43,176 nt of DNA, taken from NCBI GenBank assembly GCA_018383375.1, contig JAHAWW010000237.1, positions 1-43,176 of the forward strand, written 5' to 3'. Every line of letters begins with the position of its first letter. Position 1 is the first letter of the stretch. Both the position numbers and the translations under genes were made by a program. The notes under the pieces are model-generated. The model had not been told where the DNA came from. It saw only the letters and a program-made list of their open reading frames with translations, and did not search any database. The stretch is from Prevotellamassilia sp. Lineage in GTDB: Bacteria; Bacteroidota; Bacteroidia; Bacteroidales; Bacteroidaceae. Positions 4,208 to 39,382 of this stretch are shown here, piece by piece.

Positions 4208-5530
4208 ATGAGCAAACTCTATATCGAAACCTACGGCTGCCAAATGAATGTGGCCGACAGCGAAGTGGTGGCCTCTGTGATGCGGATGGCCGGCTACGAA
4301 ACTTGCCAAAACATTGAGGAAGCCGACGCCGTGTTTCTCAACACTTGTTCGGTGAGAGACAACGCCGAACAGAAAATCATTCACCGCCTGGAAGCGCTGC
4401 ACGCCCTAAGGCGTAAAGGACGTCGACTCATCATCGGTGTATTGGGCTGTATGGCTGAGCGCGTCAAAGACGACTTGCTCAACAAACACCACGCCGACCT
4501 CGTGGCCGGTCCCGACGCTTACCTGTCACTGCCCGACCTGATTGCCCAAGCCGAAGGCGGACATAAAGCCATTAACATTGAACTGTCAACGACTGAGACC
4601 TACCGCGACATCGTGCCTGAACGTGTGTGTGGCAGCCATGTCTCAGGATTTGTCAGCATTATGCGCGGCTGCAACAACTTCTGCCATTATTGCATTGTGC
4701 CTTATACGCGTGGCCGTGAGCGGTCGCGTGATGTGGAGAGTATCTTGACTGAGGTGAAAGATTTGGCCTCACGCGGCTATAAGGAGGTGACTCTTTTGGG
4801 CCAAAACGTCAACTCTTATCGCGCTGTCGCTGCCGATGGGAAAGAAACAGACTTTGCCGACTTGCTCCGACTTGTGGCTCAAACCGTACCGGAGATGCGC
4901 ATACGTTTCTCCACAAGCCATCCCAAAGACATGAGCGACAAGACGCTTCATGTCATCGCCGAAGAGCCTAACGTGTGCCGCCACATTCACCTGCCTGTGC
5001 AAAGCGGTTCAGACCGCATCCTTAAATTGATGAACCGCAAATATACTCGCGAGTGGTATCTGTCGCGGGTAGAGGCCATCAAGCGCATCATTCCCGACTG
5101 CGGACTCTCCACTGATATCTTTGCCGGCTATTGTTCGGAAACAGAAGAAGACCACCAACTATCGCTCAGCCTAATGAAAACCTGCGCCTACGACTCGGCT
5201 TTTATGTTCAAATATAGCGAGCGACCTGGCACATACGCCTCCAAGCATCTTCCCGACGACGTGAGCGACGACGTCAAGACCCGGCGTCTTGAAGAACTTA
5301 TTGCTTTGCAAAACGAGCTATCACGGGAAAGCAACGCACGCTGTGTAGGCAAAGTCTATGAGGTGTTGATTGAAGGCACTTCAAAACGCTCACGCGAACA
5401 ACTCTTCGGGCGCACCGAACAAAACAGAGTGGTGGTGTTCGACCGCGGCACACTGCGCATAGGCCAATACGCCAAAGTGCGCATCACCGAGTCGTCATCC
5501 GCCACGCTGAAGGGCGAGGTGGTGGAGTAA
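4208..5530 (+). CDS. miaB: tRNA-2-methylthio-N6-dimethylallyladenosine synthase MiaB
   Basis: YIETYGCQMNVADSEVV N-terminus, radical SAM motif RGCNNFCHYCIVPYTRGRERSR, TRAM-like C-terminus. Confidence 0.95.
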   Translation: MSKLYIETYGCQMNVADSEVVASVMRMAGYETCQNIEEADAVFLNTCSVRDNAEQKIIHRLEALHALRRKGRRLIIGVLGCMAERVKDDLLNKHHADLVAGPDAYLSLPDLIAQAEGGHKAINIELSTTETYRDIVPERVCGSHVSGFVSIMRGCNNFCHYCIVPYTRGRERSRDVESILTEVKDLASRGYKEVTLLGQNVNSYRAVAADGKETDFADLLRLVAQTVPEMRIRFSTSHPKDMSDKTLHVIAEEPNVCRHIHLPVQSGSDRILKLMNRKYTREWYLSRVEAIKRIIPDCGLSTDIFAGYCSETEEDHQLSLSLMKTCAYDSAFMFKYSERPGTYASKHLPDDVSDDVKTRRLEELIALQNELSRESNARCVGKVYEVLIEGTSKRSREQLFGRTEQNRVVVFDRGTLRIGQYAKVRITESSSATLKGEVVE

Positions 5531-33752: not shown

Positions 33753-33823
33753 CCATTAGAAGCATCCATGCAACCTCTTGTGGCACATGTATGGACATTG
33801 TTTTTCAACAAAAAAGACACACT

Positions 33824-36142
33824 ATGGGACGACAGAAAAAAACAGAAAGCGGACGGATGAAAAAGCAGGCAATTGTCGACCTCTTGCTCGACACCTTCAA
33901 TGCTCACCCCGACGAGAGCTTCAACGTCAAGAAAATATTTCAGTTGGTCGACGCCAAAAATCACCCGACCAAGATGCTGGTGATGGATGCGCTCGAAGAC
34001 TTGGTGCTCGACGATTATGTCAACACCGACGGCCACGGCAACTATACCGCCGCCGTGCGGTCTAACGTGATGGAAGGCACATTCCGCCGCAAACGCAATG
34101 GTCACAACTCTTTCGAACCCGACGACGGCGGCAAGAGCATCCTCGTGTGTGAACGCAACTCTATGCACGCCCTCGATGGCGACCGTGTCAGAGTGTCGAT
34201 GATGGCCCGGCGGTCCGGCCATACGCGAGAAGCAGAAGTAACCGAAATCATCCAGCGTGCCAACGACACCTTCGTGGGACAGTTGCAGGTGGAGAAAGGT
34301 TTTGGTTTCCTCGTCACCGAAGGGCGCTCACTGGCCAACGACATTTTCATTCCCAAAGACAAACTCGGCGGCGGCAAGACAGGCGACAAAGCCGTGGTCA
34401 AAATCATCGAGTGGCCCACCGACACCAAGAGTCCCATAGGCAAAGTGGTGGATATCCTCGGCCGGCAAGGCGAAAACAACGCCGAAATGCACGCCATCTT
34501 GGCCCAATACGGCTTGCCCTATCGCTATCCGGCCAACGTGGAGAAGGCTGCCGAAAAGCTCCAACCCGACATTACCCCCGAAGAGATAGCCCGCCGTGAA
34601 GACTTCCGCGGCGTCACCACCTTTACCATCGACCCCAAAGACGCCAAAGATTTCGACGACGCGCTCTCCATCCGCCGTGCTGAAGGCCAAAACTGGGAGG
34701 TGGGTGTGCACATTGCCGACGTGTCTCACTATGTCAAAGAGGGCGACATCATCGACCGCGAAGCCCAAAAGCGCGCCACAAGCGTCTATCTCGTCGACCG
34801 CACTATTCCCATGCTGCCCGAGCGACTCTGCAACTACATTTGTTCGCTCCGTCCCGACGAAGACAAACTGGCGTATTCGGTCATTTTTGTGCTCGACGAC
34901 CAAGCTCACATCGTACGCTGGCATCTGGCCCACACCGTGATACGCTCCAACCGCCGCTTCGCCTATGAAGAGGTGCAGGCCATGCTCGAACGCAACCGCC
35001 AAGCCTCTCCCGAAGACCTCACAGCTCCCGGCGACCACCCCGAACCACTGCCTGAGGGCGCACCCCTCGAGGGAGAATATGCCGAAGAGATTGTCACGCT
35101 CAACCGTTTGGCCAAACTCTTGCGTGCCGCTCGGTTTAAGAACGGCGCCATAGGCTTCGACCGTGCCGAGGTGAGATTTGAAATAGATGACAAAGGCCAT
35201 CCCGTTTCCACATACGTCAAAGTGGCCAAAGACGCCAACAAACTCGTCGAAGAGTTTATGCTCTTGGCCAACCGCACCGTGGCCGAAAGCATAGGGCGTG
35301 TGGGCAAAGGCAAAAAGCCCAAAGTGTTCCCCTATCGCATTCACGACGTGCCCGACCCCGAGAAACTTGAAAAACTCCGTGCCTTCATCACCAAGTTTGG
35401 TTATCGTCTGCGCACCGAAGGTTCCAAGACCGACATCTCCAAAAGTCTCAACGCCCTGCTCCAAGAGGCCAAAGGCAAGAAAGAAGAAAACGCCGTTGAA
35501 ATGGTGGCCCTTCGCGCCATGATGAAAGCCCGCTACAGCATACACAACATTGGACACTACGGCTTGATGTTTACCTACTACACCCACTTCACCTCGCCTA
35601 TCCGCCGCTATCCCGACACGATGGTCCACCGTCTGCTCACACGCTATGCCGAAGGTGGACGTTCGGTCAATGCCGCCAAATATGAGGAATTGTGCGAACA
35701 TTCATCGGATATGGAACAGATAGCCGCCACAGCCGAACGTGCCAGCATCAAATACAAGCAAGTGGAGTTTATGGCCGACCGCCTCGGTGAGGAATTCACC
35801 GGCACCATTTCGGGTGTCACCGAGTTTGGTCTGTATGTGGAGGTGGACGAAAACAAATGCGAAGGTATGATACCGATGCGCACTTTGCTCGACGACTATT
35901 ATGAGTTTGACGAGCGCAACTATTGCCTCATCGGCCGCCGAACCCACCACCGCTATAATCTTGGCGACAAGGTGAAAATCCGTGTGGAACGCGCTAATCT
36001 GGAGCGCCGACAGCTTGATTTCTCCATCATTTCAGACGTCAAAACCCCTGCCGCCCCACAGCCTTCCCTGCCGAAAAAGGGGGCCAAATCTGCCGGCCGC
36101 AAAGGCAAAGCCAAACAGGCTCCAAAAGGCCGTCGACGCTGA
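33824..36142 (+). CDS. rnr: Ribonuclease R
   Basis: FTIDPKDAKDFDDALSIR, VGVHIADVSHYV, YTHFTSPIRRYPDTMVHRLL, C-terminal S1 domain. The provided ORF begins at 33791; ATG at 33824 (MGRQKKTES) is a plausible start. Confidence 0.95.
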   Translation: MGRQKKTESGRMKKQAIVDLLLDTFNAHPDESFNVKKIFQLVDAKNHPTKMLVMDALEDLVLDDYVNTDGHGNYTAAVRSNVMEGTFRRKRNGHNSFEPDDGGKSILVCERNSMHALDGDRVRVSMMARRSGHTREAEVTEIIQRANDTFVGQLQVEKGFGFLVTEGRSLANDIFIPKDKLGGGKTGDKAVVKIIEWPTDTKSPIGKVVDILGRQGENNAEMHAILAQYGLPYRYPANVEKAAEKLQPDITPEEIARREDFRGVTTFTIDPKDAKDFDDALSIRRAEGQNWEVGVHIADVSHYVKEGDIIDREAQKRATSVYLVDRTIPMLPERLCNYICSLRPDEDKLAYSVIFVLDDQAHIVRWHLAHTVIRSNRRFAYEEVQAMLERNRQASPEDLTAPGDHPEPLPEGAPLEGEYAEEIVTLNRLAKLLRAARFKNGAIGFDRAEVRFEIDDKGHPVSTYVKVAKDANKLVEEFMLLANRTVAESIGRVGKGKKPKVFPYRIHDVPDPEKLEKLRAFITKFGYRLRTEGSKTDISKSLNALLQEAKGKKEENAVEMVALRAMMKARYSIHNIGHYGLMFTYYTHFTSPIRRYPDTMVHRLLTRYAEGGRSVNAAKYEELCEHSSDMEQIAATAERASIKYKQVEFMADRLGEEFTGTISGVTEFGLYVEVDENKCEGMIPMRTLLDDYYEFDERNYCLIGRRTHHRYNLGDKVKIRVERANLERRQLDFSIISDVKTPAAPQPSLPKKGAKSAGRKGKAKQAPKGRRR

Positions 36143-36302
36143 GACAAAGTTATTCGGTTCAAGGCGGTGTGTCATAATAGCCAATCTGCTGCGTTGCTAT
36201 CGGATTTGGGATTTTGACACACCCTCTTTGATGCCGATAAACACACTTCAAGCCGTCTTCATCTCATCGCGAAACTCTGCTTTGTCACGCCTCAAAGCCC
36301 AA

Positions 36303-36388
36303 ACATTTTCCGTTTTACGACAAAAACCGCTCAAAACATTTTCCGTTTTACGACAAAAACCTCCAAAAACATTTTCCATTTTACGACA
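36303..36388 (+). repeat. Three direct 33-bp iteron-like repeats upstream of DUF4143 ATPase
   Basis: ACATTTTCC(G/A)TTTTACGACA starting at 36303, 36336 and 36369 (exact 33-bp period). Confidence 0.95.
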
Positions 36389-36395
36389 TATTGAT

Positions 36396-36403
36396 TAATT
36401 TTG
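36396..36403 (+). promoter_or_regulatory. Putative -7 box of DUF4143 ATPase gene
   Basis: TAATTTTG matches TAnnTTTG about 24 nt before the ATG; flanked by ATTGATT/AATCAAT inverted repeat (36390-36396 / 36411-36417). Confidence 0.6.
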
Positions 36404-36426
36404 TAGTATAAATCAATTAGTTAGTT

Positions 36427-37791
36427 ATGTCGGACAAAATGTTTAAGCGAAAAATCTACGAAAAGATGCTTCGCTGGAAGAAAGAGAGCAATGGAAAAAC
36501 GGCACTTTTAATCAAAGGCGCTCGTCGAATAGGCAAATCGACCATTGCTGAAACGTTTGCTCAAAACGAGTATGAAACGTCCATCATCATAGATTTTTCA
36601 ATAGCCGACAAGGCTGTTAAGGAATTGTTTGAACACATCTCAGACTTAGACTACTTATTTCTGCGACTTCAATCGCTCTATAACGTTTCATTATATGAAC
36701 GTAAATCGGTCATTATTTTTGACGAAGTTCAGCTGTTCCCACCTGCTAGACAGGCGATAAAACATTTGGTCAAGGACCGCCGTTATGACTACATTGAGAC
36801 AGGTTCGCTTCTTTCCATTAAAAAGAATGTGAAAGACATCATCATACCCAGCGAAGAAACGAGAATTGCGATGTATCCGCTCGATTTTGAAGAGTTTTTG
36901 TGGGCCATAGGCAAAGGTCAGACCTTCGACCTGATAAAATATTCTTTTGATAATTTCAAACAGGTGGGTGACGCTATCAACCGCGATCTGATGCGGCTGT
37001 TCCGACTCTATATGCTTGTAGGCGGTATGCCACAGGCGGTCAATACATACCTTGAAACGAACGATTTCTCTGAAATTGATGCCGTTAAACGGAGGATACT
37101 CGAACTATACATTGATGATTTCCGGAAAATAGATCCGACGGGACGTGCCTCACGCCTATTTATGTCTATTCCGGCAGAACTCTCACGCAATACGTCACGC
37201 TATAAGGTGGGGAGCGTCATTGAAAAAGCCACCGCTTCGAGGCTTAGTGCCTTGTTTATGGATATGTCTGATTCAATGACGGTGAACTTTGCCTATCATG
37301 CCAATGATCCGGGTGTAGGATTTTCGCTTCATGCCGACTATGATTACTTCAAACTGTTTCTGGCCGATACTGGACTATTTGTCACATTGGCATTTATGGA
37401 CAGCGACTATACAGATAATGTCATCTATCGAAAATTGCTCTCCGACAAACTCAGTACCGATTTGGGTTATGTGTATGAGAATGCCATCGCCCAAATGCTA
37501 AAGAGTGCGGGCAACGAACTTTTTTATTATACCTTCAAGGAAGAAGGCGAAAGAGATGATACAAACAGTAAAACCATACGCCATTATGAAATAGACTTTT
37601 TGCTTTCACGAGGAAGCAAGATTTGTCCGATTGAAGTCAAGTCTTCAGGTTACAACTCACACAAATCACTCGACAAATTTCAAGAAAAATTTTCTGCAAG
37701 AATTATAAACCGATATCTACTCTATACCAAAGACCTGCGTAAAGACCAAGACTTGATGTGTCTACCTGTGTATATGGCGCAACTGTTGTAA
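36427..37791 (+). CDS. AAA_14 / DUF4143 family ATP-binding protein with PD-(D/E)XK-like C-terminus
   Basis: Walker A IKGARRIGKSTIAE, Walker B VIIFDEVQLFPPARQAI, sensor YIETGSLLSI; C-terminal EIDFLLSRGSKICPIEVKSSG. Confidence 0.93.
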   Translation: MSDKMFKRKIYEKMLRWKKESNGKTALLIKGARRIGKSTIAETFAQNEYETSIIIDFSIADKAVKELFEHISDLDYLFLRLQSLYNVSLYERKSVIIFDEVQLFPPARQAIKHLVKDRRYDYIETGSLLSIKKNVKDIIIPSEETRIAMYPLDFEEFLWAIGKGQTFDLIKYSFDNFKQVGDAINRDLMRLFRLYMLVGGMPQAVNTYLETNDFSEIDAVKRRILELYIDDFRKIDPTGRASRLFMSIPAELSRNTSRYKVGSVIEKATASRLSALFMDMSDSMTVNFAYHANDPGVGFSLHADYDYFKLFLADTGLFVTLAFMDSDYTDNVIYRKLLSDKLSTDLGYVYENAIAQMLKSAGNELFYYTFKEEGERDDTNSKTIRHYEIDFLLSRGSKICPIEVKSSGYNSHKSLDKFQEKFSARIINRYLLYTKDLRKDQDLMCLPVYMAQLL

Positions 37792-37981
37792 TAGTTCACT
37801 TCTCAAAAGCTGTCCCTCTTCGGCAAGCCGAACGATATATCCAATCCAAAGCCGCCAACTTCAAAAAAATGGCACAACTATTAAAAATTATCGGCTAATA
37901 GGCGTGGTATAATCAAGCAATGTTTGTACATTTGTGGTTCAAAGCAACTTTTTGTTTTAAAACTCAAATCTTAAACATACC

Positions 37982-39382
37982 ATGACGTTAATCAAATCAA
38001 TTTCAGGTTTCCGTGGTACCATTGGCGGTAAGCCCGGAGACACGCTCAACCCCATTGACATCGCCAAGTCTGTATCAGCTTATGCCAGCCTGCGCGAACG
38101 CGTAGTAGGGCCTTATCGCCGCAAAATCGTTGTAGGCCGCGACGCCCGTATCTCAGGCGAAATGGTTTCACACGTGGTTTGTGGAACGCTCATCGGTATG
38201 GGATTTGACGTGCTCAACATCGGTTTGGCCTCTACGCCCACCACTGAACTTGCCGTGACAATGGAGCGTGCCTGTGGTGGTATCATCATCACTGCCAGCC
38301 ACAACCCCCGTCAGTGGAATGCCTTGAAGTTCCTCAACGAAAAAGGTGAGTTCCTTCCGCCCGAAGAAGCCTCTGAAGTAGTGCGCTTGGCCCACAACTG
38401 CAACTTCTCTTTTGCCGACGTTGACCACCTCGGTTGCTACACCAAAAACTTCTATTTCGACCAACGCCATATCGACCTCGTCAAATTTCTTGAACTTGTC
38501 GACGTTGAGGCCATTCGTCAGGCCAACTTCCGCGTGGCCATTGACACGGTCAACTCTGTGGGTGGTATCATCCTGCCTAAGTTGCTCGGCCAGCTTGGCG
38601 TAACCCAGGTGACAGGCCTCAACACTGAGCCCACAGGCGACTTTGCCCACAATCCCGAACCGCTCAAAGAACATCTCTCCGATATCCGCAACCTCATGCG
38701 CAAAGGCCACCACGACATTGCTTTCGTGGTCGACCCCGATGTAGACCGCTTGGCTATGGTCTGCGAAGACGGCTCAATGTTTGGCGAAGAATACACTCTC
38801 GTGGCTGTGTCAGACTATGTCCTCCAGCACACGCCCGGCAATACCGTTTCTAACCTCTCTTCAACCCGTGCATTGCGCGACGTGACAGAGAAATATGGTT
38901 GCACCTACACGCCGGCAGCAGTGGGCGAAGTGAACGTGGTGACCAAGATGAAAGAGACCGGTGCCGTCATCGGTGGTGAAGGTAATGGTGGTGTCATCTA
39001 TCCCGCCGCACACTACGGCCGTGACGCTCTTGTGGGCATCGCCCTCATCTTGACCTATCTGGCCAAGACCAAGATGAAAGCCACTGAGCTCCGCGACTCC
39101 TTCCCCAAATATTTCATTGCCAAAAACCGCATCGACCTCGACCCGACTACCGATATCTTTGCCATTCTCAAGAAAGTCAAAGAGCTTTACAAGGACGAGA
39201 AAGTCACCGACATCGACGGCGTCAAAATCGACTTCCCCGACAAGTGGGTACACCTCCGCAAGTCAAACACCGAGCCGATTATCCGCGTTTATTCAGAAGC
39301 CTCTACCATCGAGGAGGCCGACGCTCTCGGCAAACAGATTATGGACGTGGTTTATTCAATGACCAACAAGCCTGAAGAATAA
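37982..39382 (+). CDS. glmM: Phosphoglucosamine mutase / phosphohexomutase
   Basis: GIIITASHNPRQWNALKF catalytic serine loop, VDPDVDRLAMV metal loop, GEGNGGVIYP sugar loop. Confidence 0.85.
   Translation: MTLIKSISGFRGTIGGKPGDTLNPIDIAKSVSAYASLRERVVGPYRRKIVVGRDARISGEMVSHVVCGTLIGMGFDVLNIGLASTPTTELAVTMERACGGIIITASHNPRQWNALKFLNEKGEFLPPEEASEVVRLAHNCNFSFADVDHLGCYTKNFYFDQRHIDLVKFLELVDVEAIRQANFRVAIDTVNSVGGIILPKLLGQLGVTQVTGLNTEPTGDFAHNPEPLKEHLSDIRNLMRKGHHDIAFVVDPDVDRLAMVCEDGSMFGEEYTLVAVSDYVLQHTPGNTVSNLSSTRALRDVTEKYGCTYTPAAVGEVNVVTKMKETGAVIGGEGNGGVIYPAAHYGRDALVGIALILTYLAKTKMKATELRDSFPKYFIAKNRIDLDPTTDIFAILKKVKELYKDEKVTDIDGVKIDFPDKWVHLRKSNTEPIIRVYSEASTIEEADALGKQIMDVVYSMTNKPEE

Follow-up and report, generated by a model that had tools for sequence, protein, structure and literature searches.

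Archaeal Orc1/Cdc6 and plasmid Rep proteins are AAA+ or winged-helix proteins that read repeated sites, often beside their own genes, and initiators and MuB/TnsC-like ATPases are known to form nucleoprotein filaments. In this study, we analysed a stretch of 43,176 nucleotides from Prevotellamassilia sp. (assembly GCA_018383375.1, contig JAHAWW010000237.1; hereafter the window), in which three direct repeats (iterons) with a spacing of 33 base pairs (bp) lie over the predicted promoter of a gene encoding a DUF4143 ATPase, a full-length member of the putative defence family PDC-S01. The nearest described operator is that of RptR, an encoded repressor which binds three direct repeats over the promoter of a phage-defence island; these repeats are 9 bp long and contain the palindrome TAGCTA, which is conserved across genomes (PMC12255303). 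The report on PDC-S01 describes the family as an ATPase-PD-(D/E)XK fusion and as the fourth most common defence of prokaryotes, with 29,494 bacterial and 9,986 archaeal instances, and notes that most phage-defence candidates (PDCs) still await experimental validation (PMC12988326). The remark of the original prediction that the function of DUF4143 ATPases is largely unknown stands, as no demonstration of PDC-S01 function was found in the open-access literature, but the family had already been listed as this candidate; the defence label is itself a PADLOC prediction.

The locus resembles the RptR operator in carrying three direct repeats on the promoter of putative defence genes. It differs in that RptR is a separate repressor, whereas the would-be repressor of the window is the ATPase-nuclease itself, and in the repeats, which have the core ACATTTTCCGTTTTACGACA and a 33-bp spacing, are asymmetric and private to one gene, and hold no TAGCTA within a 9-bp repeat. 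The family is also unlike Orc1/Cdc6 and the Rep iterons in combining promoter arrays with a nuclease-like C-terminus and with as many as 21 paralogues in one genome, and no features of an origin were seen, origin activity itself being outside the analysis. Compared with the published PDC-S01 family, the new element is the private promoter array. No description of promoter repeats at PDC-S01 or DUF4143 genes was found in the open-access literature, with subscription papers and preprints outside the search, so this novelty is provisional. We consider it probable that the array is a private self-repressing operator, bound head-to-tail by the encoded protein via its predicted winged helix.

The array occupies positions 36301-36399, and its three direct copies start at 36301, 36334 and 36367, which gives the exact 33-bp spacing that the original prediction had described. 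On the forward strand, core 1 (36303-36322) is the 20-bp sequence ACATTTTCCGTTTTACGACA, core 2 (36336-36355) is identical to it and starts 33 bp later, and core 3 (36369-36388) has one mismatch and starts 33 bp after core 2. The 20-bp core of the predicted motif was thus found in all three copies, but its 26-bp version is limited to copies 1 and 2, since copy 3 retains the core and then continues with TATTGAT. A search at up to three mismatches revealed no further core sites, either elsewhere in the window or across the 2.2-Mb draft genome, and the iteron region had no match in Rfam. The high identity of copies 1 and 2 (91% over 33 bp) might point to chance or to a recent tandem duplication by slippage. 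This explanation is almost certainly wrong, as 0.01 sites of the ACATTTTCCGTTTTACGACA type are expected by chance in the window and the observed count was reached in 0/100 shuffles, and it is refuted by the comparison described below, in which the spacing is kept across phyla and the sequence is not. The repeats of the window are confirmed as a real feature.

Read with the Bacteroidetes-type -33/-7 promoter consensus, the forward strand upstream of the start codon (ATG at 36427) shows a predicted -33 element TTTT at 36372-36375, a 20-bp spacer and a predicted -7 element TAATTTTG at 36396-36403. Core 3 therefore spans the predicted -33 box, as had been proposed for the third copy, together with most of the spacer. 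The ATTGATT/AATCAAT inverted repeat said to flank the -7 box is present at 36390-36396 and 36411-36417, but it was not found in the closest relatives (L008, L009 and L089), and it was discarded as a functional element for this lack of conservation. The proposal of helically phased sites on the same face of the DNA holds as far as the constant 33 bp is concerned; this distance corresponds to about 3.1 turns of free B-DNA, which puts the sites on one face only approximately.

The 33-bp layout was found to be a property of the family. A genome scan starting from one query, with the phyla unevenly sampled, found 80 relatives at 45-82% identity, and the best direct repeat in the 220 bp upstream had a period of exactly 33 in 67/81 genes (window included) and of 32-34 in 74/81, against a period of 33 in 4/124 random segments used as control. 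Repeats of 32-34 bp with a score of at least 13/16 were also observed in 47/60 relatives from related genomes, down to about 25% identity. After pooling and de-duplication, such repeats were present upstream of 168/212 family genes and of 11/378 control genes, these being other open reading frames (ORFs) of the same loci, the promoter content of which differs from that of the family upstreams. When the subfamilies were split by hidden Markov model (HMM) score bins (a signature regular expression proved unreliable and was unused), the arrays were found in 164/196 relatives scoring 150 or more. The array thresholds were chosen by eye and the start codons were automatic; these limits, together with the sampling and the control, cannot explain a contrast of 79% to 3% at one spacing. 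Among the 118 array-bearing loci used for the spacing, promoter-overlap and Mantel statistics, which were preselected for the 32-34 bp period, 203 successive spacings were exactly 33 bp, 34 were 32 bp and 20 were 34 bp, and a copy overlapped the core promoter predicted by a consensus scan in 105.

The relatives occur in Bacteroidales, Lachnospiraceae, Selenomonas, Treponema, Coriobacteriales, Testudinibacter and one Thermoplasmata metagenome-assembled genome (MAG), and examples of the 33-bp layout span Bacteroidota, Bacillota, Spirochaetota, Pseudomonadota and this Thermoplasmata archaeon, in which the locus is flanked by genes for aIF2-alpha-like, Nop10-like and PAC2-like proteins, read by eye as archaeal. 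Arrays of 33 or 32 bp were also found at 4/4 plasmid-borne genes checked in named isolates, namely in Agathobacter rectalis (WP_306784691.1), Segatella copri DSM 18205 (WP_006848557.1), Glaesserella parasuis and Acinetobacter baumannii.

The spacing alone is common to the family; each gene has a repeat sequence that is nearly its own. Below about 60% protein identity, the iterons of two genes are 0.47-0.49 identical, compared with 0.43 for shuffled sequences. Around 12 clade members in a genome with 21 DUF4143 genes each have a different core; the iteron of the window genome occurs at its own gene only, and the same applies to the iteron of a relative assembled in one contig at 99% completeness, while the array of a third genome has four copies that are distinct from three scattered sites with three mismatches. 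A second clade member of the window genome (L004) carries its own, different 33-bp array on the reverse strand (genome G000, contig C46, about 4945-5032). Its upstream region seemed free of an array until the start codon was corrected, as the ORF caller had read on into the array and turned part of it into a false N-terminus, MVIIRRNKCNFATVIRPNKCRD; automated start codons can therefore hide arrays. The idea that the 20-mer would be specific to DUF4143 genes has to be divided accordingly: the sequence belongs to one gene, and the 33-bp architecture is common to the subfamily. Expansions of DUF4143 genes were also observed in a 3.2-Mb Treponema MAG (G156, 21 matches) and in a 1.1-Mb MAG (G161, 16 matches).

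The protein itself (454 amino acids, 36427-37791, forward strand) consists of an AAA_14 ATPase domain, a predicted winged helix (about residues 240-312) and a DUF4143/PD-(D/E)XK-like C-terminus. It scored 77.6 bits with the Pfam model AAA_14 (cut-off 27) and 51.6 bits with DUF4143 (cut-off 28.1), and the PADLOC PDC-S01 model PDLC04786 covered residues 5-453 with an E value of 4.5e-95. In an AlphaFold model built with 30 relatives (mean predicted local distance difference test 88, predicted template modelling score 0.88), three parts can be recognised: an AAA+ core, elements resembling a winged helix, and a C-terminal fold like that of a nuclease; the helices and hairpin at residues 240-312 were read as a winged helix by inspection. 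The PD-(D/E)XK-like tail noticed in the original prediction proved to be a conserved motif (E388, D390, E403 and K405 in the window protein). Among the 118 relatives, the Walker residues K37 and E100 were invariant (118/118) and D99 nearly so (117/118), as were the nuclease-like residues D390 (118/118), E403 (117/118) and K405 (118/118), and this suggests an active enzyme.

To determine which domain follows the repeats, iteron distances were compared with domain distances by partial Mantel correlation. The winged helix gave 0.21 (null standard deviation 0.024, null maximum 0.053), compared with 0.07 for the nuclease, slightly over its own null maximum, and -0.07 for the ATPase. An unbiased scan of single columns placed 15 of its 25 top columns within residues 239-312, a stretch with 74 of the 423 columns, and many of these lie in helix 3 (267-284). 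For closer pairs, the strongest columns include 274, 305, 267, 273, 278, 269 and 268, in helix 3 and the wing, with strong columns in the nuclease as well, such as 404 and 386. It suggested, with modest strength, that the divergence of the iterons tracks the predicted winged helix and not the ATPase domain.

The iterons could be the sites of a separate host transcription factor, with the ATPase not binding at all, as repeat operators for dedicated regulators occur at many promoters. We regard this as very unlikely, because each paralogue has a sequence of its own without a copy elsewhere in the genome, and because this sequence tracks the ATPase's own predicted winged helix; moreover, no conserved neighbour gene was found, any one neighbour being common to at most 7/80 loci. 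An operator without another genomic copy also means that the protein is no general regulator. Autoregulation is favoured because of the promoter overlap, the single-locus operators, the lack of a conserved neighbour and the winged-helix covariation. The original proposal of autoregulation or cooperative assembly on DNA is in outline supported by these observations, the constant spacing and the predicted winged helix.

The cores were not palindromic (palindromy 0.57, compared with 0.56 in shuffles), and the sites are therefore asymmetric and arranged head-to-tail. In the operator model, the encoded protein would use its winged helix to read each asymmetric 20-bp core, and the protomers would line up cooperatively in the same direction, with protein-protein contacts setting the 33-bp step in the subfamily of the window. 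The bound oligomer on the core promoter would repress transcription of its own gene. In this way, the amount of a potentially harmful ATPase-nuclease would stay low until the promoter is vacated by the oligomer, which could follow, for instance, a change in nucleotide state or the arrival of foreign DNA. Protein binding, repression, a role in defence and release on infection are what we infer in this model.

Several points weigh against this model. The Mantel correlation is small, the sequences are related and shared descent was controlled only in part. About one fifth of the sampled members lack a clear 32-34 bp array, some of which may only seem array-less due to a wrong start codon. The promoter boxes are consensus predictions, an array of about 100 bp near the start would often overlap the promoter by position alone, and some arrays continue beyond the promoter on its downstream side. 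The same geometry would also suit an activator.

The same AAA+ fold and predicted winged helix bring in another explanation, in which an AAA+ nucleoprotein filament uses the iterons for assembly or sensing, rather than as a simple operator, and the control of transcription is secondary or activating. The direct, asymmetric sites of fixed spacing speak for it, and the Foldseek matches include ORC/Cdc6 (with DNA-bound Orc1/Cdc6), RuvB, TnsC and MuB in addition to clamp loaders. These came after the top match, the archaeal AAA+ ATPase SSO1545 (PDB 2fna; E value 1.5e-7, template modelling scores 0.41/0.51), which is itself weak overall at 13% identity, and a sequence search against PDB chains gave no match to the window protein. 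The similarities are remote and driven by the AAA domain, so that the MuB/TnsC resemblance amounts to a general AAA+ likeness. The overlap with the predicted core promoter in most array-bearing genes is best fitted by occlusion, and the 21 and 16 unlinked DUF4143 genes of two genomes make a replication-origin role unlikely, which also counts against a filament site. We hold this explanation to be rather unlikely.

Repeat spacing was found to differ in sister subfamilies. DUF4143 genes with a GPKxCGKT-like Walker A motif carry upstream tandem repeats with a period of 23 bp in 10/11 loci and of 46 bp (two units) in 1/11 (L188, L196, L197, L212, L213, L215, L248, L251, L185, L186 and L048). In the KVITG-RR-GK type, 32-34 bp arrays were found in 0/19 genes, and 6/19 (L203, L205, L206, L223, L240 and L243) showed promoter-region inverted repeats whose arms matched at 12 or more bases, a level that none of the shuffles reached. 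Three sampled proteins from these subfamilies matched PDC-S01 via PDLC04790 and PDLC04787. The period thus goes with the protein subfamily (33 and 23), as would be expected from protein-protein geometry. A bolder and rather unlikely extension is that all PDC-S01 proteins are self-reading ATPase-nucleases parked head-to-tail on private arrays of 33 or 23 bp by subfamily. The array would then serve as a lock and a sensor at once, and removal of the oligomer by foreign DNA or by a nucleotide switch would derepress the gene and free the nuclease.

The window gene is flanked by rnr and pgm (33791-39382). In sister genomes of the genus, including one with a pgm that is 95% identical, rnr does not adjoin pgm, and the locus is therefore rearranged or an insertion site. 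The invariant catalytic residues, the solitary gene and its patchy occurrence over phyla would also suit a selfish cassette, in which the iterons are substrate, immunity or mobility sites of the nuclease domain and the promoter overlap is incidental. Neither terminal repeats nor a partner recombinase were seen and the iterons are absent outside the promoter, so we give this view very little credence. A phage origin of the gene was dropped, as an exact-match search of viral contigs for ACATTTTCCGTTTTACGACA found no copy and relatives of the protein are rare there (14 found). An imperfect inverted repeat 3' of rnr (36161-36228, 77% over 26 bp, 16-bp loop) is possibly the rnr terminator; a terminator scan made no call there.

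PDC-S01 is among the commonest reported putative defence families, and the conserved array offers a concrete handle on it. For each PDC-S01 protein, the cis-element points to the DNA that it likely binds and predicts its specificity from sequence, and the private arrays make binding, cooperativity and induction testable in cultured strains. If the parked-oligomer reading is true, one genome could hold a dozen or more copies side by side, each insulated from the others. Should specificity go with the winged helix, the family would amount to a large natural collection of repressor-operator pairs that are insulated from one another.
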